IMG/VR virus record: IMGVR_UViG_3300042346_000536
Location: 1 to 26,518 of that record
Strand: one strand, 5' to 3'
From: a virus
Length of the DNA stretch: 26,518 bases
The stretch's first letter is position 1; each line of letters begins with the position of its first letter. A program made the position numbers and the translations under genes. This document shows positions 2,677 through 26,518 of this stretch, piece after piece. Below the pieces are notes generated by a model. It worked only from the letters and a program-made list of their open reading frames with translations, searched no databases and was not told the DNA's origin.

Positions 2677-3969
2677 TTACCAAGCCAGAGCCTCAGACGT
2701 ACCACGCTTATAGAAGATCGGCAAGATATTAAACGGATTCACAGGCATAACGCCGTGAACAGTGGAGGCGATGAGCTTAATGTGCTCATCCCAAGTGTTG
2801 GCTTCGAGGTTACCGTCGGAGTCCTTCACGAGGAAGTTACGCGTAGCCTGAACCTGACCGTTCCAGTTAAGGGCATTGTACTTGTTCAAGGACATTCCCT
2901 TACCAGTGAACTCAGAAGGCGGAGGTCCAACGTCGATGGTCTCGATAGGATTATAGCCGATCAAGAACGCAACGCCAACCGGAGCCTTACGGTAGTCCGG
3001 ATGGAAGCGGGTGATGTAGCCCTTGTCACCGGAGTAGTTCGCATCGTTGTACTCCTGCTCGATCTGGATGTCAGGCAACGTACCGTCTTCCTTGAAGCGC
3101 AACGGGAGCGGATCATGACGGAAGATGATGTTGTCAGAGATCGTGCCCTTGAAGCGCGAGTTGATGATGTCCATGGCCAACGGCTTGACGTTGTTGACCG
3201 TGGTATCGTAGGTAAGGCGAGTCCAGAGTTCGGAAGCACCGATCAGGACATACTTACCCTTAGCAACTTCGTTGTCGCGAGGATTGCCCTTCTTCCAGCC
3301 TTCCATGGGCGCCATGCCGATATCGTTGCAGGCGAGGTCACGGATAGCGCAGATGGTGCGGAAGTCAAGAGTCGTAGGTCCGAGTTCCTGAATACGAGCA
3401 GCGACCCAGCTAGCATCCTTCACATTCGCGGACGGATCGGTAGGATCACCGAACGGCACAGACTCGTCGTAGGCAGTATCGGTAGACGAGCCACGGCCAA
3501 CATGATACGCATGACGCGCGAGGTGCAGACCCTGATCACGAATGAAGAAGTCATTCGACACAGAAATTTGATGAGCGATGTCAGTCATCTGGAACATCAC
3601 ATTCTTCCGGAAGTCACGGAAGTCAGGAATCCAGTTGATCTGCTGCGACATGTACTTGTGCCGCTTGACACGAGCTTGGTTCTGCAGTTCGCGATTGCGG
3701 TACGTGTTGATCTTCGCTTGCTCGGTGATGTTATTCGGCCGATGAGTCTGCGAAGTGATAGGCGAACGCTGAGGCATGATGCCAACGACAATGTCGCCAT
3801 TGTTCTGCTTCCAGCGCATGCTTCCGAATTGATTACCCCAAACAGAGGAGTATTCGTAAGCGTTGAGTTCCTGAGCGGCCATCTGCACGGGCATACGCGT
3901 AAAAGCGTTTGCATCCTGCACAGAATAGGTAACGTTCGTGGGCGGAGTGATTCCAATAACTGAAGGCAT
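2677..3969 (-). CDS. Major capsid protein
   Basis: This is a 430-aa protein. It lies directly after portal and scaffold genes, the usual place for the major capsid protein, and has the usual length. Features include a hydrophilic N-terminal arm rich in N, Q and R, a central part with KYVLIGASELWTRLTYD followed by FKGTISDNIIFRHDPLPLRF, and a C-terminal region with VGVAFLIGYNP. These recall capsid proteins of the HK97 fold, perhaps the N4 gp56-like branch. The fold assignment is inference. The ATG at 3969 has no Shine-Dalgarno; it is preceded by an A-rich stretch (GCAAAACAAAACTTAT). A structured leader and a sigma-54-like promoter precede it, suggesting its own strong late transcript within the structural arm. 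Confidence 0.85.
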   Translation of the reverse strand: MPSVIGITPPTNVTYSVQDANAFTRMPVQMAAQELNAYEYSSVWGNQFGSMRWKQNNGDIVVGIMPQRSPITSQTHRPNNITEQAKINTYRNRELQNQARVKRHKYMSQQINWIPDFRDFRKNVMFQMTDIAHQISVSNDFFIRDQGLHLARHAYHVGRGSSTDTAYDESVPFGDPTDPSANVKDASWVAARIQELGPTTLDFRTICAIRDLACNDIGMAPMEGWKKGNPRDNEVAKGKYVLIGASELWTRLTYDTTVNNVKPLAMDIINSRFKGTISDNIIFRHDPLPLRFKEDGTLPDIQIEQEYNDANYSGDKGYITRFHPDYRKAPVGVAFLIGYNPIETIDVGPPPSEFTGKGMSLNKYNALNWNGQVQATRNFLVKDSDGNLEANTWDEHIKLIASTVHGVMPVNPFNILPIFYKRGTSEALAW

Positions 3970-3979
3970 ATAAGTTTTG

Positions 3980-4096
3980 TTTTGCTCCGCCGGTGCAAAA
4001 GAAAAGCCACCGACGGAAAGGCTACGGTTGAACTGCGAGGTTCACCGCAACGCTCACCATAGGTGGCTATTGCAGACTTACGAGAGACTCGTAAGT
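3980..4096 (-). promoter_or_regulatory. Structured leader RNA of the capsid gene
   Basis: This gene-free stretch between scaffold and capsid genes folds on the minus strand into ordered elements. First is a perfect 9-bp hairpin, ACTTACGAG / CTCGTAAGT (4096-4076). Next is a long-range stem GCCACC / GGTGGC (4067-4062 with 4011-4006) extended by ATGG/CCGT. That stem encloses a hairpin CGGTGAAC / GTTCAACCG with one bulge (4047-4025), and TTTTCTTTT follows it. Last is a TTTTGC / GCAAAA hairpin (4000-3980). The stem plus T-tract could act as a terminator or attenuator, or make a small RNA of about 100 nt. The fold was done by eye. Confidence 0.55.
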
Positions 4097-4117
4097 TACT
4101 TACTCTGAGATGTTTAT

Positions 4118-4133
4118 TGCAGAGAGCGTGCCA
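4118..4133 (-). promoter_or_regulatory. Sigma-54-like (-24/-12) promoter for capsid operon
   Basis: On the minus strand TTGGCACG is followed by CTCT and CTGCAA. The core TGGCAC-N5-CTGCA matches the sigma-54 consensus TGGCAC-N5-TTGCW except for one base, with the exact GG-to-GC spacing. It starts just after the scaffold stop codon. The expected start of transcription is near 4107, about 140 bases before the capsid ATG. Confidence 0.65.
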
Positions 4134-4135
4134 AG

Positions 4136-7328: not shown

Positions 7329-7517
7329 TTAGAAAGGTCGGTCGTCGGACTCGAACGGGACTTCGTCGTTAGCGAAATCTTGCTGTTCCTTCATCTCGTC
7401 AGGTTGTCCGTCATCTTCCTCTTCAGCGATCGAGATAAGATCTCCCACGACAGTCTGTACTTCTTTAAGCTCGTCAGTCGTTAGACCTTCAAGCATTGCT
7501 TTTAGTTCGTCACTCAT
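7329..7517 (-). CDS. Small acidic protein between terminase and portal
   Basis: This is a 62-aa, strongly acidic protein (SIAEEEDDGQPDEM and FESDDRPF). The N-terminal ~33 residues are predicted helical (ELKAMLEGLTTDELKEVQTV). Its ATG overlaps the terminase stop by 4 bases, and its stop lies one base before the portal start, so it belongs to the packaging operon. Function is unknown. Charge and place would suit an assembly or packaging accessory, but that is a guess. Confidence 0.65.
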   Translation of the reverse strand: MSDELKAMLEGLTTDELKEVQTVVGDLISIAEEEDDGQPDEMKEQQDFANDEVPFESDDRPF

Positions 7518-9334
7518 TTGTAGATTACGTTAAAAAGGCCATTGGATACGGACATCGAGCGATGTTTAGCGAAAGGATCGAAAGGCTCTACCGCTTGGAA
7601 AGCCTTCTCTTCGTACTCTTGCACAAAGCGAGCCACCTTGGCTTCTCGTGAGATTTCTTCACCCTGTTCTCCGTTCATGAAAGACTCGATATCGTAGCCT
7701 GAGTAGGCAAGCACGTAGGCGTCTGCGCAGTCCGGTGAATACCCTAGACGTCCTTTGGCTTTCTTCTTATCTTCTAGCTGTAGCTTTTGCTTGTCGTTCG
7801 TAAAGTATCTACGAGTCGTGAGTTGCTTTAGCCATTTAGGATAACAGCCGAACTGTTTGGGCGGCACAAGAAGGCCGAGCACTACCAGTGTCTTGATACG
7901 GAAGTACATCTCTGCGCCTATGTTTGCATAGGAGTTCGTGTCGTACGCTGGTGATTGATTATTGATTAGTCGTAGCTCGTAGCCTGCCTCGCAGACACGT
8001 TTGAGGATAGGTGCACCAATACCACCAGCATCACCGGAAGCATTTTCAGGCAACAAGCCATGACGCGCTTTGCCAAGATTTAGTTGTTCGATAATCCATG
8101 CATGCAATATGTTCGGCGATCCTGTGTGTGTTTCTGCGTGATAGATGCACGCATTGCCTTGGACTATCCAGAACTCAGAAGGATCGCCGCCTAGACCAAT
8201 GTCTACGCCCGCACGGACAGGTAAGTGATAAGAGGAGGATTTAGGTATTTCGTAGGAGAACAGATCGGATGGAATCACAACCTCTTCAGAAGATTCCCAG
8301 AACTCTGCTAAGATACTGGTTTTGTATACGTAAGAGTTTTCGGTAAATTTGAGGCGTGTCTGTTCAATCTGCACCCTTGTAATGTTCGGACACTCGAATG
8401 CGGTGACACGACGGGTAAAGTTCTTACCCAACGTCATGTGGTCGAACGTAGACAGTTCTACTGATTTGTAGAACTGTCCAGATCTACCGCCGGGTGACGA
8501 TACTTGAATCCAATGAGAATAACCGCTGAAGCGCTGGAAGGCTTCGTAGAGAGTGTCTTTGATTGACTTGGCTTCGTTGATGATGATAAACATCTTGTTG
8601 TCCTTCGACTCAGGAAAAGGATGTCTACCTTCTACCTTTCCTGGTTCGTCAGAACAAAAGCCAATGATCTCTGAACCTGTATATGTGCAACGTAGGTTCA
8701 GTTCACGTATCTCGAAGATCTCCTCTCCGTGGGCAGCATTGATTGCCTCAGCTAGAGATAGGATTGACGATCGGAATGTCTGCTCTTTAAGCTGTGTGTG
8801 CGAGTCAGACGTAATGACAATCTTACAGCGGATGTAACGCATCGCGGCCCAGACAGCGATAGGCGCAATAATGTACGTATCCTTTCCAGAACCGTTTGCG
8901 GCTACAAGATTGTAAATGTAAGGATCCTCTTGCGTCGGATCTTGCCACTCTTCGCGCGGAAGGTCTTCTAGGTTAATGTCTCCACCGATACGGTAGAGTT
9001 CTTCCTGTTGCCACGGATGTGGTTTTCGGGATGGCGCGTAGGTGGCAAGCAAGGCGAGTGGCGTGGAGAAGTTAAAAGCCTTAGGATTTGAAGGCCATGA
9101 AAATTTGGCTTTGGGCCCCGGGGGCGCGGGGGCGGGCGCGGTGGGGGCGCGGGGGCCAGGGACGGCAGGTTCAGGGTTACAGTCTTGCTGGAATAGGTTT
9201 GCCGGTACAGTGTTAACGTACTGTGACAGGTCTACTTCTGCAAAGGCAGGATCTTCTGCGGCATTGTTAAGAAGTGATTGTTGCGCCGCACGTTGACGCA
9301 ATGCGAGTACTTGTTCTTTAGATAGTTTAGGCAT
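7514..9334 (-). CDS. terL: Terminase large subunit
   Basis: This is a 606-aa protein: an ATPase that drives DNA packaging plus a nuclease that cuts concatemers. The N-terminal ATPase has Walker A AANGSGKD (145-152) and a hydrophobic Walker B FIIINEAK (249-256) with the catalytic Glu at 254. The residue before it is Asn instead of the usual Asp. The C-terminal RNase H-like nuclease has GVDIG (Asp378), SGDAGG (Asp435) and YSPDCADAY (Asp535/Asp538). Residues ~53-76 form a Pro/Ala-rich linker encoded by an unusual G/C run (about 9110-9160). The start overlaps the small terminase stop by 8 bases. Identity is well supported. Confidence 0.93.
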   Translation of the reverse strand: MPKLSKEQVLALRQRAAQQSLLNNAAEDPAFAEVDLSQYVNTVPANLFQQDCNPEPAVPGPRAPTAPAPAPPGPKAKFSWPSNPKAFNFSTPLALLATYAPSRKPHPWQQEELYRIGGDINLEDLPREEWQDPTQEDPYIYNLVAANGSGKDTYIIAPIAVWAAMRYIRCKIVITSDSHTQLKEQTFRSSILSLAEAINAAHGEEIFEIRELNLRCTYTGSEIIGFCSDEPGKVEGRHPFPESKDNKMFIIINEAKSIKDTLYEAFQRFSGYSHWIQVSSPGGRSGQFYKSVELSTFDHMTLGKNFTRRVTAFECPNITRVQIEQTRLKFTENSYVYKTSILAEFWESSEEVVIPSDLFSYEIPKSSSYHLPVRAGVDIGLGGDPSEFWIVQGNACIYHAETHTGSPNILHAWIIEQLNLGKARHGLLPENASGDAGGIGAPILKRVCEAGYELRLINNQSPAYDTNSYANIGAEMYFRIKTLVVLGLLVPPKQFGCYPKWLKQLTTRRYFTNDKQKLQLEDKKKAKGRLGYSPDCADAYVLAYSGYDIESFMNGEQGEEISREAKVARFVQEYEEKAFQAVEPFDPFAKHRSMSVSNGLFNVIYK

Positions 9335-15717: not shown

Positions 15718-15740
15718 TTTACTGATCCGCCCGACACAGA

Positions 15741-15780
15741 CTTGAGCTTGGCACGCTCCCAGCTTTACTCCAAGCTCAAG
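15741..15780 (+). other. 11-bp dyad surrounding a promoter-like site
   Basis: CTTGAGCTTGG (15741-15751) and CCAAGCTCAAG (15770-15780) form a perfect inverted repeat around an 18-base centre. The centre contains the -12 element of the sigma-54-like promoter. It may be the terminator hairpin of the upstream cluster or an operator over the promoter; only TTT follows it. Confidence 0.6.
15749..15764 (+). promoter_or_regulatory. Sigma-54-like (-24/-12) promoter
   Basis: TTGGCACG, CTCC, CAGCTTT: the core TGGCAC-N5-CAGCT keeps the GG and GC pairs at the exact sigma-54 spacing. The expected start is near 15775. The leader to the ATG at 15830 has a 5' hairpin GGACT/AGTCC (15788-15801) and then an A/C-rich unstructured stretch. 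Confidence 0.6.
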
Positions 15781-15829
15781 TTTGAACGGACTGATTAGTC
15801 CTCAACGAAACACAAAACGATACACAGAT

Positions 15830-16576
15830 ATGTCTAACGAAGTTATCACGCCAGCCACTGTCGAGAACAAGAAGCCCACCGTTCGTCCGCTCCTCGGTGA
15901 GAACGATGCGCAGTTGTTCCTCGTGGTCGGCGACGCTAAGCTCCCCATGTTGGAGCGCACCACGCCTGCTCACACCCGCAAGAAGAACGGTGTCAGCGAG
16001 CAGGTCGCAGAGAAGACCGACTACGTGGCTGACTACTCCGACGGAATGCAGTATGTCCGTGCCGCTACTGTGGCACTGACGCAGGCACCTGTCGAAGATC
16101 GTGCCGCGCTTGCCGAACGGATCTTCAGTAACTGGGTCGACGACTCCATCGAGAAGGGTGTCGTGCCCAACCCGTCTGTCGCCGGTGAGACCATGTGGGA
16201 CGAGACCGTTGCCTCGAAGAACCTTCTCCTTGCTCGCACCAAGCGCGCTGCCGGTCAGTCTATCGAAGACCTGCGCAAGGAGATTGGCGACCTCAACGCC
16301 GCACTCGTGCCGATCATGGAGCAGATCATGGCCGGTCGAGAAGACGAGTCCACCATCGACTGGTCTGTCGTGCACAAGTTTGCTGGCGACAAGGTGGTCG
16401 AATTCGAAGCACTCATCGAGTGGAAGATCGCTGCTTCCGAGCGCGTGAAGAACATCACGGCTGCCCTGCGAGCGAAGACCGAGGCCATCGAGCAGGCCAA
16501 GGCCAAGCGCGCCGAGAAGAAGAAGGCCAAGAAGGGCGAGTCTCCTGTCGGCGCCGCGGCGAGTGCTGCGGTGTAA
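15830..16576 (+). CDS. 248-aa abundant-type protein, unknown
   Basis: Not recognised. The ATG at 15830 (MSNEVITPATVENKK) is preferred over an in-frame ATG at 15782, which would fall in the leader hairpins. The middle contains EKTDYVADYSDGMQYVRAAT and a helical region with SIEDLRKEIGDLNAAL. The C-terminus is a Lys/Ala/Glu-rich helix (AIEQAKAKRAEKKKAKKGES), then an Ala tail. Codons are strongly biased to G/C-ending forms (GTC, GCC, AAG, CTC), more than in neighbouring genes, suggesting high expression. It has its own promoter-like site and a strong terminator, so it is a single-gene unit. A nucleic-acid-associated role is possible because of the basic tail. Confidence 0.65.
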   Translation: MSNEVITPATVENKKPTVRPLLGENDAQLFLVVGDAKLPMLERTTPAHTRKKNGVSEQVAEKTDYVADYSDGMQYVRAATVALTQAPVEDRAALAERIFSNWVDDSIEKGVVPNPSVAGETMWDETVASKNLLLARTKRAAGQSIEDLRKEIGDLNAALVPIMEQIMAGREDESTIDWSVVHKFAGDKVVEFEALIEWKIAASERVKNITAALRAKTEAIEQAKAKRAEKKKAKKGESPVGAAASAAV

Positions 16577-16699: not shown

Positions 16700-16743
16700 A
16701 TTTGCCTATTGTCTACGTGTGAAAAAGTATAATAATAAATCGT

Positions 16744-16759
16744 TGGCACAACACTTGTT
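16744..16759 (+). promoter_or_regulatory. Sigma-54-like promoter for the replication operon
   Basis: TTGGCAC, AACAC, TTGTTT: it matches TGGCAC-N5-TTGCW at all but one position (GT in place of GC). The predicted start near 16769 would leave only 2-3 bases before the ATG at 16772, so the message may be nearly leaderless. A TATAAT at 16728-16733 without a good -35 is an alternative sigma-70-type signal. Confidence 0.5.
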
Positions 16760-16771
16760 TACCTACAGTAT

Positions 16772-17392
16772 ATGAATGTCCAACTGCACCTCACCGAGTT
16801 AGCAGAACTCCTATTCCCTTCCCTCGAACTAGGTCTCGAAGAGGAACGAGCATGGGCCGCGCGCAATATCATTGACTACCATTGCGCAGAGTGTCGGGTT
16901 ATTAACTCCTCTCTTGCAGTAGCAATCAAAGAGTCAGACCCAGAAGCTAAGGTCTTTCACGTACAGATTGCTGGACCTGACAATCGAGTCTTCATCCTTT
17001 GGCGCACACAGAACTGGCGCGAGTCTAAACATAGGCGCTTAGCACTTAAGACTTCTCTCGCCCTTGAGAAACACCAACAAGACATACTCAAGGCAGACAC
17101 CGCAGAAGAACTAGCGCACCGTAAGCTGTGCGTAGAGTGGCTCGCTCGTGTAGCCTCTAAGTTCTGTGACATCTGTATCGGTTACAAGGTATCGTTCCTA
17201 CGTGACGCTTTTTATAAGTTAGCCTCACGTGCGAACTATGACATGGAAGTTTTGTACTCTGCTTTGATTGAGATAGTCGATGAAGATTCTCTCAAGCAAG
17301 TATGGGTAGGCGCACCTCAACGAAAGAATAAAGATGAACAAAGAAAACCAGAAGAAGTTCAAGAAGTATCAGCAGATCGCAGTGCGAATTAA
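16772..17392 (+). CDS. 206-aa protein, unknown, first gene of replication operon
   Basis: Not recognised. The N-terminal part (LTELAELLFPSLELGLEEER; ARNIIDYHCAECRVINSSL) is helical. The middle has a strand-like KVFHVQIAGPDNRVFILWR. Residues ~100-180 are helical with several cysteines (KLCVEWLARVASKFCDICIG). The C-terminal ~25 residues are charged and overlap the next gene by 59 bases. It begins the rightward operon leading to the helicase, so a replication-related role is plausible but not shown. Confidence 0.6.
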   Translation: MNVQLHLTELAELLFPSLELGLEEERAWAARNIIDYHCAECRVINSSLAVAIKESDPEAKVFHVQIAGPDNRVFILWRTQNWRESKHRRLALKTSLALEKHQQDILKADTAEELAHRKLCVEWLARVASKFCDICIGYKVSFLRDAFYKLASRANYDMEVLYSALIEIVDEDSLKQVWVGAPQRKNKDEQRKPEEVQEVSADRSAN

Positions 17393-20104: not shown

Positions 20105-20971
20105 ATGCCAATCCCCCTAAGAAAAGGCGTCGGCCCTAAAGTTCCGCACGCTGTATCTGTCGCTGCCCTCCGTGCAGAGATAGCGCACATCAAGCTTACC
20201 TCCCAAGGTAAGCTAGTCACTTCACAGTACGTGACAGAAGATCCTTTCATGAAGGATCAAGTCTCGCTTGCCGAGCAAGTCCGTGACATGTCTATGCCTG
20301 TCCTTATTGTAGGCGAGTCAGGCACAGGCAAGGATGTCCTTGCGCAGATGATGGGCGAGCGCTACACAATCGACCCAACCACAGGTCTACAGTCTAAGCA
20401 ACCCTTCGTAGCCGTGAACTGTGCAGGCATTACCGATACTCTCTTCGAGTCAGAGATGTTCGGTCATGTACGTGGTGCGTTTACCGGTTCAGTAGGCGCA
20501 CGGAAAGGTTTCTTCGAAGCAGCGAACGGAGGCACCCTGTTCCTCGATGAGATAGGTGACCTACCATTAAGTCAACAAGCTAAGATCCTACGTGCTATCC
20601 AGAATAAGGAAGTTATTCCTGTAGGCAGCACCGAGCCTATCCATATCAACGGTCGTCTGATCTGTGCCACGAATAAAGATCTTAGGAAGTCTATCCTCGA
20701 CGGACAATTCCGTGAGGACTTGTACTACCGTATTGCTAAGGTAATCGTACGCACTACACCTTTGCGTGATCGTGTCATAGATGTACTGCCTATTGCATCT
20801 GCTATCATTCAGCGCAATGGCTGGACACCTCTTGGTGAACTAGGCGAGGGTGATCATATCATTCCAAGCTGGGCCTACGATCGTGGTAATGTCCGACGAC
20901 TCGAAGCCTGTCTACAACTGCGTGAATTAGGTATGGAATGGAAAGACATTGAAGAACAGTGGAACTGGTAA
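20105..20971 (+). CDS. Sigma-54 activator-type AAA+ ATPase (no HTH)
   Basis: This is a 288-aa protein. It is essentially a lone sigma-54-interaction AAA+ domain: Walker A GESGTGKD (70-77), the GAFTG loop (124-128) that contacts sigma-54, Walker B GGTLFLDEIGDLP (142-154), sensor I ATN (188-190), FREDLYYRI with arginine-finger region (202-210), PLRDR (219-223) and sensor II GNVRRLE (261-267). It lacks the regulatory N-terminal domain of response regulators and the C-terminal Fis-type HTH, so it would act constitutively, perhaps from solution as known for HTH-less activators. Normal role: ATP-driven remodelling of the sigma-54-RNA polymerase closed complex. A repurposed role in DNA replication is the alternative. 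It lies 12 bases after the helicase in the same operon. Confidence 0.85.
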   Translation: MPIPLRKGVGPKVPHAVSVAALRAEIAHIKLTSQGKLVTSQYVTEDPFMKDQVSLAEQVRDMSMPVLIVGESGTGKDVLAQMMGERYTIDPTTGLQSKQPFVAVNCAGITDTLFESEMFGHVRGAFTGSVGARKGFFEAANGGTLFLDEIGDLPLSQQAKILRAIQNKEVIPVGSTEPIHINGRLICATNKDLRKSILDGQFREDLYYRIAKVIVRTTPLRDRVIDVLPIASAIIQRNGWTPLGELGEGDHIIPSWAYDRGNVRRLEACLQLRELGMEWKDIEEQWNW

Positions 20972-21584: not shown

Positions 21585-21833
21585 ATGAACGCACAGAATA
21601 AACTCCCTACCACAATCGACGAACTCCTCGACTACCCAACCGCAGCCGAGGACATGACAGACCAACAACTTACAGAACTCCTTCGTCCATTCTTCCCAGC
21701 CACACGCCCCGGCAAGCTACTAGCTGCCAGTGCAGATGCTGTAGGTCGCATGTCTGCGGCTATGTCGGACGAAGATCTTCTGGCATTGGCAAGGAAACGT
21801 AAGGCTGAAAGAGAACAGAATAAAACAACATGA
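21585..21833 (+). CDS. 82-aa protein, unknown
   Basis: The ATG at 21585 (MNAQNKLPTTIDELL) comes 4 bases after the preceding stop and is preferred over upstream in-frame starts at 21540 and 21564 that overlap that gene. It is helical, with a Leu-rich part (TDQQLTELLRPFF) and a Lys/Arg-rich tail (LLALARKRKAEREQN) that could bind nucleic acid. The stop overlaps the next ATG (ATGA). Function is unknown. Confidence 0.55.
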   Translation: MNAQNKLPTTIDELLDYPTAAEDMTDQQLTELLRPFFPATRPGKLLAASADAVGRMSAAMSDEDLLALARKRKAEREQNKTT

Positions 21834-22129
21834 AACTATTAACCTTAGAATGGATACCACGTAAAGTAACACAAGGTCTGACGACCTGCTACCAAGGTGA
21901 CGCCTGTCAAGTTGGCCCATACAAAGCCTACATAAACAACAGTGACAAGCCACATAGGTACCAACTACCTTATGTCTTGTATCTATCTTGCCGGACAGAC
22001 CAAGACAAAACCACCTATCACACCACCATCGAAGAAGCCAAGCAAGTAGCCACTCAAGAACTCTCAGAGAACGTACATAAACTCTGTACTGAATTAGGAT
22101 ATATTTTATCATGCACTTCGAATACATAG
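21830..22129 (+). CDS. 99-aa protein, unknown
   Basis: It is coupled by ATGA to the previous gene. The N-terminal part is strand-like with several aromatic and cysteine residues (LLTLEWIPRKVTQGLTTCY; ACQVGPYKAYI); the C-terminal part is helical (TTIEEAKQVATQELSENV). It overlaps the nuclease gene by 19 bases. No family was recognised. Confidence 0.55.
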   Translation: MKLLTLEWIPRKVTQGLTTCYQGDACQVGPYKAYINNSDKPHRYQLPYVLYLSCRTDQDKTTYHTTIEEAKQVATQELSENVHKLCTELGYILSCTSNT

Positions 22130-24693: not shown

Positions 24694-25427
24694 AAACCCG
24701 TATCATCTCCACAACGCTACCTCACATCTGGGTAGACCCTAACAATAACGAATGCACGGCAGATGTGTTCGGCGCCCGACTACTTACAGCCGAAGAACTT
24801 ACCATCTACATCGCTCGTGTCTCTAACCCTTCCAACCAAACCAATACCGATACAGCACCAAAGCTCTTAGCTTACTGTATCCGTAACGGACATTGGTCTG
24901 TGTTCGAACATGTGCATATGACGATTGAGATTGAGACATCTCTTGCTATTGCTACACAGATCTTGCGCCACAGGAGCTTTACGTTCCAGCAGTTCTCGCA
25001 GAGGTATGCGGATATTGCAAAATTGAATAGCACTACATTGACAGATGAAGATCTTGAGATGCGCTGGAAAGCCAATGGCGGCAACAGGCAAGGCTCAGGA
25101 AATGTTGTAACAGATCAGGCTCTATTGCATAAAGCCAATGAAGCTCTCGACAGCGCCTGTTACGTGTACCGCGATCTCATGTCCGCTGGTGTCGCACCCG
25201 AATCCGCACGCTTCGTCCTCCCTCAATGTACAAAGACCCGTCTCTACATGACAGGTAATCTCCGCTCATGGATCCACTACCTTACCCAACGTCTTGACCC
25301 ACACACACAAAAGGAGCACCGTGAAGTTGCTGAGTCTATCCTCGGACATTTCAAAGGACAGTTCCCAATGACATATGAAGCCTGCTGTAACATTGAGATT
25401 CCTGCGCGTAAGTTGTTTCCATCTTAA
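24690..25427 (+). CDS. thyX: FAD-dependent thymidylate synthase
   Basis: This is a 245-aa protein. It makes dTMP from dUMP using methylene-tetrahydrofolate and FAD. The diagnostic ThyX motif is RHRSFTFQQFSQRY (93-106; consensus RHR-x7-S-x-R), and HWSVFEHVHMT (68-78) precedes it. The ATG at 24690 overlaps the preceding stop by ATGA; an in-frame TTG at 24669 is not preferred. Phages carry thyX to supply dTTP for their own replication. The stop is followed within 3 bases by a sigma-54-like promoter and then a long non-coding region. Confidence 0.93.
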   Translation: MKTRIISTTLPHIWVDPNNNECTADVFGARLLTAEELTIYIARVSNPSNQTNTDTAPKLLAYCIRNGHWSVFEHVHMTIEIETSLAIATQILRHRSFTFQQFSQRYADIAKLNSTTLTDEDLEMRWKANGGNRQGSGNVVTDQALLHKANEALDSACYVYRDLMSAGVAPESARFVLPQCTKTRLYMTGNLRSWIHYLTQRLDPHTQKEHREVAESILGHFKGQFPMTYEACCNIEIPARKLFPS

Positions 25428-25429
25428 CT

Positions 25430-25445
25430 TGGCACGCCCATAGCT
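25430..25445 (+). promoter_or_regulatory. Sigma-54-like promoter before the structured RNA
   Basis: CTTGGCACG, CCCA, TAGCTTAC: the core TGGCAC-N5-TAGCT keeps GG and GC at exact sigma-54 spacing. It begins 3 bases after the thyX stop and shares CTTGGCACGC with the sites at 4133 (minus) and 15749. The expected start is near 25456. Confidence 0.6.
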
Positions 25446-25455
25446 TACATAGAAT

Positions 25456-26106
25456 TACCTGCGTTGGGGCGCAGTCTGTCACGTGTGTGACAGATAACAG
25501 CAACTGATAGTCTTGGTCAGAGTCGATTAGTTGCTGCCAATTTCGACCGAGTGGTGAATGGGAATCACGTTAGGTTGCTTAGCCGCTCGCTAACATATGC
25601 AGGTTCGAATCCTGCCTCGGTCATCAGTTTAGTCAGTCGAATGCCCGCATGAGTACATTTGTTAAATAGACCTCATGCAACTTTTGTCGACTGGCGACTT
25701 TGACCACACGATAAGTGGGTACGCTGTTCGTACCTTTGTTGTTCTGCTCCTGGGTCGCTTATCGTGTGGTCTTTATCTTCGCCTTGAAAAACAGGCTGCC
25801 TAGTAGTGTAGGTGAATGAGTACAAGGTGCGACCGAGCGCCAGAGAAAACACTACATCGGTCATTTTGACAACCTGCCATGCTGCACAGGGAGAACCTGT
25901 GAGGGAGTAGCGTTGAGGAGCGCTGTGTGGAGTTGGACCTCTCATGAAACAGCAGGTTGTCTTTAGATTTAGCTAGGTGATAAGTACGCTGTGAACGTAG
26001 CAGCAGAAAGGCATCAAGCTCCGGTGTAAATCCGGCGAGCACCGTGCGATATGCGGACGATTTCCTAACGGAAAACAAGAAACAAAACAAGTAACCAAAA
26101 GATAAC
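25456..26106 (+). ncRNA. Large structured RNA region (GOLLD/ROOL-like style), candidate
   Basis: About 650 bases hold no credible gene but a dense set of helices. They are CAGCAAC / GTTGCTG (25498, 25530); a tRNA-like cloverleaf (25545-25623); CAGTCGA / TCGACTG (25634, 25687) around GCATGAG / CTCATGC (25647, 25672); a perfect 14-bp stem GACCACACGATAAG / CTTATCGTGTGGTC (25702, 25758) around GGTACG / CGTACC; GTAGTGT / ACACTAC (25803, 25849) around GGTGC / GCGCC; a 10-bp stem GACAACCTGC / GCAGGTTGTC (25868, 25952) enclosing three hairpins; and terminal hairpins CCGG/CCGG (26021) and TTTCC / GGAAA (26061). It may be one RNA or several; 5' and 3' ends are inferred. Some or all of it could also be the leader of the next gene. 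Confidence 0.6.
25545..25623 (+). tRNA. tRNA-like element with enlarged anticodon loop
   Basis: It has a 7-bp acceptor GACCGAG / CTCGGTC with discriminator A, T8, D-stem GTGA/TCAC with A14, GG in the loop and A21, and a T-arm GCAGG-TTCGAAT-CCTGC. These are the conserved core positions of a real tRNA. The anticodon stem is GTTAG / CTAAC, but its loop is 16 bases (14 under the alternative 4-bp pairing) instead of 7. No normal anticodon can be assigned. CCA is not encoded. It is either a tRNA mimic within a larger RNA, a tRNA with an insertion, or a decayed tRNA gene. Confidence 0.6.
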
Positions 26107-26518
26107 ATGGCAATCGTACGCAAGTCTAGTCTCCCTGACAACTCTGGCCCTATCCCGCAGACTGTCTACACCTTGGCGATTAAGTCTGCCGAGCACAAGA
26201 AGTCTGCGAATAACTCAGACATGCTGGTGATTACCCAGCAGATTGTCTCGCCTGCCAATGTGCCGCAGGAAGGTAAGAACGTTAAGACTGCCGGGCGCAC
26301 CGCGGTTCACCGTATCGTGGCGACCGACAAGTCTAACCTGTGGGTTAAGGAAATCGAACAGTTGCTCGGCACTGAGCTTCCGGAAGACCTCGACACCGAG
26401 GAAGTCTGTAAGTCTGCGGCTCTGGCGCTTAACCCGTCCGACGAGAATCCGATCCAGTACCTGATTAACGTGGAGCTTAAGCCCGTCGAGCGTTACAAGT
26501 TCGATCCGGCTACGAAGA
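26107..26518 (+). CDS. Putative phage ssDNA-binding protein (DUF669-like), partial
   Basis: The ATG at 26107 gives at least 137 residues before the window ends. The N-terminal pattern YTLAIKSAEHKKSANNSDML and the following strand-like segment with TQQIVSP recall small phage ssDNA-binding proteins of the DUF669/gp2.5-like sort. This is consistent with the nearby Sak4-like recombinase and nuclease, but the match is weak. Codons are G/C-ending and biased, as in the 248-aa gene at 15830, suggesting high expression. There is no Shine-Dalgarno; an A/C-rich unstructured leader of about 30 bases follows the last hairpin of the RNA region. Confidence 0.45.
   Translation, partial: MAIVRKSSLPDNSGPIPQTVYTLAIKSAEHKKSANNSDMLVITQQIVSPANVPQEGKNVKTAGRTAVHRIVATDKSNLWVKEIEQLLGTELPEDLDTEEVCKSAALALNPSDENPIQYLINVELKPVERYKFDPATK

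Follow-up and report, generated by a model that had tools for sequence, protein, structure and literature searches.

What does a phage encode in several hundred bases that hold no gene? The window analyzed here is a 26.5-kb linear virus record (26,518 nucleotides in all), and its right end contains such a stretch between thyX and a gene for an ssDNA-binding-like protein, P0001. A first-pass annotation of the sequence proposed that this stretch specifies one large, ornate RNA with an embedded tRNA-like fold behind a sigma-54-like promoter, either a divergent GOLLD or ROOL RNA or a new class. We compared the stretch with its relatives, with known RNA families, and with the regulatory sequences and proteins encoded elsewhere in the window.

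The locus and its relatives

The gene order at the right end is a PD-(D/E)XK exonuclease, a Sak4-like protein, small ORFs (one with a HIRAN domain), thyX, the gene-free bases, and P0001. The relative of P0001 in L002 gave a weak match to a phage ssDNA-binding family (E = 5e-4), and the predicted fold of P0001 was set aside owing to its low confidence (pLDDT 56). As the first-pass annotation had stated, the stretch after thyX is gene-free: no conserved ORF lies between thyX and P0001, and the minus-strand ORFs found there are broken in relatives by 1- and 4-nt indels and disrupted by missing modules.

Scans of viral_contigs yielded just two contigs that carry the array, L003 and L004 (L002 is the same contig as L003, shifted by 35 bases). 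Whether the query was P0001, the exonuclease, or a DNA pattern taken from the promoter or from C, E, or H (Table 1), the matches converged on these two. The order thyX-RNA-P0001 is common to all three genomes; L004 differs in having a single additional small ORF after thyX, ahead of the promoter. ThyX identity to the window is 98% for the L003 contig and 69% for L004; otherwise, the ThyX scan of viral_contigs added distant phages only (∼50 to 55%), in which neither the array (BLAST) nor unit H (covariance model) was matched. Degenerate patterns for unit H retrieved L003 and L004 alone in viral_contigs and nothing in genome_contigs, and among 82 sources the unit H covariance model R1 matched only the window, L003, and L004. 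Likewise, relatives of the promoter, hairpin E, P0001, and the exonuclease lay in the same two viral_contigs contigs, with none in genome_contigs. DNA similarity to the array in catalogued phages was confined to the tRNA T arm and chance matches, and plasmids gave none. The comparison set consists of three related sequences from one narrow lineage, all of them metagenomic fragments.

As for the host, the best catalogued relatives of the terminase large subunit (7514-9334, minus strand) belong to Akkermansia phages (25 to 29% identity), a weak hint of a verrucomicrobial host. Shine-Dalgarno sequences are absent at most gene starts in the window, and their scarcity is perhaps another clue to the host.

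Table 1. Coordinates of the features discussed, in window positions
Feature	Position	Strand	Remarks
Third sigma-54-like promoter	4119-4134	-	TTGGCACGCTCTCTGCA; upstream of ORF 2677-3969
Leader RNA behind third promoter	3990-4115	-	Strongly folded; z = -6.17; 0/200 shuffles as stable
Second sigma-54-like promoter	15748-15763	+	Upstream of ORF with ATG at 15831
Sigma-54 activator (bEBP AAA+ core)	20105-20971	+	PF00158, E = 1.2e-59, 201 bits
thyX	24690-25427
Gene-free stretch thyX/P0001	25428-26106		679 bases
Sigma-54-like promoter of the array	25429-25445	+	TTGGCACGCCCATAGCT (GG-N10-GC); conserved before the same array in L003 (3117) and L004 (3389)
Leader hairpin h1	25459-25474	+	Longer hairpin in L004, with two double compensatory changes
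Leader hairpin h2	25475-25494	+	UCUGUCAC-GUGU-GUGACAGA; in L004, 4/8 pairs changed on both sides, same loop
Leader hairpin h3	25498-25536	+	Two compensatory pairs in L004
tRNA-like unit C	25545-25623	+	In all three phages
Hairpin E	25634-25693	+	Two 7-bp helices; 3/7 pairs of the inner helix compensatory vs L002; weak YrlA resemblance
Hairpin F	25702-25771	+	14-bp perfect stem 25702-25715/25758-25771
Unit G	25782-25862	+	Possible pseudoknot, loop GACCGA (25831-25836) with UCGGUC (25857-25862)
Multibranch unit H	25868-25961	+	10-bp helix 25868-25877/25952-25961; in all three phages
Tail unit I	25966-26056	+	Fold uncertain; 99% identity to L002; missing in L004
Small hairpin J	26061-26074	+	UUUCC-N4-GGAAA; in all three genomes, loop variable; precedes A-rich P0001 leader
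P0001 (ssDNA-binding-like gene)	from 26107

Structured units and covariation

From 5′ to 3′, the stretch comprises the promoter, hairpins h1 to h3, units C, E, F, G, H, I, and J, and the A-rich leader of P0001. The 14-bp, 10-bp, and two 7-bp helices listed by the first-pass annotation are present (in F, H, and E, respectively), as are its tRNA-like unit (C) and its multibranch element (H). The predicted fold of the whole stretch has an energy of -235 kcal/mol, compared with -206 ± 7 kcal/mol for 20 shuffles (z = -4.42). Individually, the leader (z = -3.6), C (-2.5), E (-3.1), F (-5.58), and H (-3.0) also fold more stably than their shuffles. By energy, G (-1.7), I (0.1), and J (-0.6) do not stand out clearly from their shuffles, and these three units show no covariation support, which counts against the reading that we favor below. 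The candidate pseudoknot strands of unit G repeat the acceptor-stem sequence of unit C (a repeat of CUCGGUCA); their complementarity is found in both genomes carrying G, where the sequence is invariant.

The L003 contig has three further units between the leader and hairpin E: a tRNA-like unit capped by a GAUA tetraloop, a closed unit of two hairpins, and a second tRNA-like unit of Rfam grade. The array of L004 consists of the leader, C, H, and J only, four units being missing. Because whole units are gained and lost between relatives, we read the region as a string of self-closed units, not as one fixed architecture.

A lack of covariation in the stems was one of the refuting outcomes named by the first-pass annotation, and the comparison gave the opposite result. 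In the stems compared across relatives, 21 pairs are changed on both sides and none is broken, counts that come from only three sequences and, except for unit H, from arms picked by their folds. Between the window or L002 and L004, all 18 differing pairs in h1, h2, h3, the arms of C, and H are double-sided changes that still pair; hairpin E adds three between the window and L002. In unit H, 6 of 27 pairs are changed on both sides, and 81/81 cells are paired. Shuffled partners reached the observed pairing or covariation in 1 of 500 trials, and slid partners abolished the signal (0 to 1 double changes, compared to 6). At the sequence level, units E to J are 97% identical between the window and L002 (with zero substitutions in hairpin F), whereas the flanking genes differ at 21 to 31% of their four-fold codon sites. 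Because all 21 double-sided changes preserve pairing, the RNA structure of the array is, on this comparative evidence, real and under selection. The covariation lends good support to the claim of a large structured noncoding RNA region with a tRNA-like unit.

In searches against the Rfam tRNA model RF00005 (cut-off, 29 bits), unit C scored 46.7 bits in the window, 47.4 in L003, and 39.9 in L004, and the second L003 unit scored 41.1. The window copy has the cloverleaf elements of a tRNA, with a 7-bp acceptor, a D arm, and a T arm containing GUUCGANUC. The anticodon-arm loop of C measures 16 nt in the window and L003 and 14 nt in L004; that of the second L003 unit measures 6 nt, and the third L003 unit, which Rfam did not match, has only the 4-nt GAUA tetraloop. 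None of the four distinct tRNA-like units has an anticodon loop of 7 nt in which an anticodon can be read. ARAGORN called the window copy of C and the second L003 unit "tRNA-???" and made no call in L004, and the 37 kb of the three records contain no canonical tRNA. Because none of the units has a 7-nt anticodon loop, standard decoding is unlikely, and they are probably not decoders. An intron in unit C was considered and rejected, as the loop leaves just 9 nt beyond 7 and differs in L004. In comparison with its relatives, the acceptor stem of unit C is unchanged in all three sequences, while three of five anticodon-arm pairs and one T-arm pair are compensatory; the invariant acceptor stem and varying anticodon arm suggest that the acceptor end is recognized by sequence and the anticodon arm by shape only. 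Separately, a role for unit H as a CsrA sponge, for which its five GGA motifs were considered, was discarded: GGA is depleted across the array (8 compared with 12 expected), and the H unit of L004 has fewer.

Sigma-54-like promoters and the phage activator

The array promoter, TTGGCACGCCCATAGC, has the exact GG-N10-GC spacing of sigma-54 sites, in the form TTGGCACG-N6-GC at 25429-25444. It reads TAGC where sigma-54 sites usually read TTGC, a point against our preferred reading. The window contains three copies of the pattern TTGGCACGN6GC, compared to 0.03 expected, and a sigma-70 scan of the plus strand of the array region found no site. The sigma-54-like promoter of the first-pass annotation is thus upheld by its conservation in three genomes, by these additional copies, and by the activator gene described below. 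The feature itself is better started at the promoter (∼25429) than at 25456, the start given originally, which falls close to the expected +1.

Several observations concern the other sites. The second promoter lies within an inverted repeat of 11 bp, CTTGAGCTTGG/CCAAGCTCAAG (15738-15785, plus strand), a possible regulator site. The leader RNA behind the third promoter has no Rfam match; its main hairpin terminates in GGUGGCUUUUCUUUU, and it precedes an ORF of unknown function. Just ahead of the ORF at 16772, TTGGCACAACACTTGTT (16743-16759, plus strand) could represent one more site of the sigma-54 type, the fourth and a weaker one. In addition, ORF 21830-22129 contains a copy of the array promoter with three mismatches, TTGGCCCATACAAAGCCTACATA (21912-21934, plus strand), which is unexpected by chance.

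The window also encodes a protein with the AAA+ core of bacterial enhancer-binding proteins (bEBPs), which matched the NtrC1 structure 4ly6 (E = 1.3e-51). As in NtrC1 and PspF, Walker A and Walker B are intact (GESGTGKD and DEIGDLP) and a GAFTG loop is present. Unlike those bacterial proteins, it is phage encoded, its loop reads GAFTGS (one residue off GAFTGA, another point against the preferred reading), and its short C terminus lacks a recognizable helix-turn-helix. No receiver, Fis-type helix-turn-helix, other DNA-binding domain, or CARF domain was recognizable in the protein. The lack of a recognizable DNA-binding domain also weighs against the preferred reading; activators without such a domain exist, such as Helicobacter FlgR. 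The protein matches phrog_7998, annotated as "unknown function," and that PHROG could be renamed. Kinship with RtcR, its best NCBIfam model, was not accepted, as BLAST places it nearer ZraR, NtrC, and AtoC. Other phage bEBPs offered little for comparison: most matches in the "phages" collection seem to be stretches of bacterial DNA within phage records, and MT121960, apparently a genuine phage with a bEBP-like gene, has no sigma-54 motif. In the open-access literature, the coverage of which is incomplete, we found no phage that captures host sigma-54 polymerase through its own activator.

Competing readings of the array

We favor, with a probability of roughly 0.58, an operon under sigma-54 whose transcript, made up of tRNA-like units and other small RNAs, is cut into units by tRNA-type processing. 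Activated by the phage bEBP ATPase, host RNA polymerase carrying sigma-54 would start at ∼25456, and the transcript would cover the array and run on into the ssDNA-binding-like gene. Host RNase P and RNase Z would recognize the tRNA-like units, and their cuts would free the hairpin and multibranch RNAs on either side as individual stable small RNAs. We infer a role for the tRNA-like units in processing and stabilization and not in decoding, because of their anticodon loops; they could also act as decoys, drawing off factors that recognize the body or the acceptor end of a tRNA. Parts of this picture have precedents in the Salmonella YrlA operon and in GOLLD and ROOL, discussed below, neither of which matches the array. 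Phage T4 offers a parallel in RNAs C and D, extra stable RNAs within its tRNA cluster. The array resembles T4-type clusters in having tRNA-type units among other small structured RNAs, probably in one precursor, and differs from them in having no canonical tRNA, no 7-nt anticodon loop, and a sigma-54-type promoter.

The chief rival, which we regard as unlikely yet worth weighing, is a giant cis-acting 5′ leader that controls the translation, mRNA stability, or autoregulation of P0001, with the tRNA-like parts as binding sites. In all three genomes, the array immediately precedes P0001 without a convincing terminator between them, H and J are the units retained nearest the start codon, and the third sigma-54-like site, too, is followed by a folded leader ahead of a gene. 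Because the array continues directly into an mRNA, some units may indeed act in cis, which counts against the favored reading. However, ∼650 to 900 nt containing between one and three tRNA-like folds greatly exceeds the usual size of a leader, and the gain and loss of whole units, together with a varying distance from H to the ATG (145 compared with 48 nt), argue against a cis-acting element.

An ordinary phage tRNA cluster in decay, with degenerated anticodon arms and filler hairpins, is improbable. Phage tRNA clusters are common, and the tRNA body, the T loop, and in part (L003 and L004) an encoded CCA persist here. Yet these bodies are under selection, with compensatory changes and 98.7% identity between unit C and its L002 counterpart; the abnormal loop is identical in the window and L002, and the abnormal arm in L004 pairs by compensation. 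The lack of canonical tRNAs in the three records and the equal conservation of non-tRNA units also speak against decay.

A single large RNA that folds as one particle, GOLLD/ROOL-like but of a new class, is very unlikely. GOLLD and ROOL are large structured phage RNAs found near tRNA islands (PMC12286853), and the array is likewise large, phage borne, and structured and contains tRNA-like units, with a comparable length and complexity of fold. A cmscan of positions 25400 to 26140 (741 nt) against all of Rfam 15, with E values up to 5, gave only tRNA and weak YrlA matches and none to GOLLD (RF01998) or ROOL; across the whole window, L003, and L004, no Rfam family besides tRNA was found. This result leaves a new class open, but each module is self-contained, with its own closing stem, and modules come and go between relatives, L004 being reduced to four components. 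The array also departs from GOLLD and ROOL in being modular and separable, in its tRNA-like units without a normal anticodon loop, and in the sigma-54-like promoter ahead of it. The proposal of a divergent GOLLD or ROOL RNA is consequently not supported, and that of a new class survives for an array of separate small RNAs with odd-loop tRNA-like units, not for one ornate molecule.

In Salmonella, the rsr-yrlBA-rtcBA RNA repair operon, under a sigma-54 activator, yields YrlA, an RNA with a tRNA-like domain that may, as its authors suggest, inhibit an anticodon nuclease (PMC7790460). The array shares with this operon the apparent control by a sigma-54 activator, an RNA with a tRNA-like domain, and a weakly YrlA-like stem, hairpin E, which has a similar AAUGC / ACUU..UGUCG bulge; the top NCBIfam model of the phage activator is, moreover, RtcR. 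A parallel Y RNA-type system, with E as the Ro60/Rsr-binding stem and the tRNA-like units as the effector part, is nevertheless highly improbable, given that E scores 20.7 bits against YrlA (RF02553; cut-off, 69) and lacks the tRNA-like insert, that the YrlA model does not match the L003 copy, that TROVE/Ro60 (PF05731) is absent from the three records (fragments, so that a host copy is possible), and that the activator is closer by BLAST to other families. The locus also differs from the Salmonella operon in that neither RtcB nor RtcA is among the scanned proteins and no CARF domain is recognizable in the activator. Because the L003 copy differs and no Ro60 gene was found, the score of E is a lead only.

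Returning to the sigma-54-driven operon, a further reading of its purpose is tentative and, in our judgment, rather doubtful: a private phage sigma-54 program in which tRNA mimics without anticodon loops, together with new small RNAs, would disturb tRNA-centered processes of the host, such as tRNA-cleaving defense or RNA repair. If true, it would define a new phage RNA family, with tRNA bodies that lack anticodons under sigma-54 control. If the favored reading holds, the array is a new set of phage small RNAs, some of them tRNA-shaped and probably non-decoding, which would show what purposes tRNA bodies serve for phages beyond translation. The phage itself would then be one whose own activator apparently lets it capture the sigma-54 RNA polymerase of its host. 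Being compact and modular, the array may also offer an easier route into the function of large phage-borne structured RNAs.
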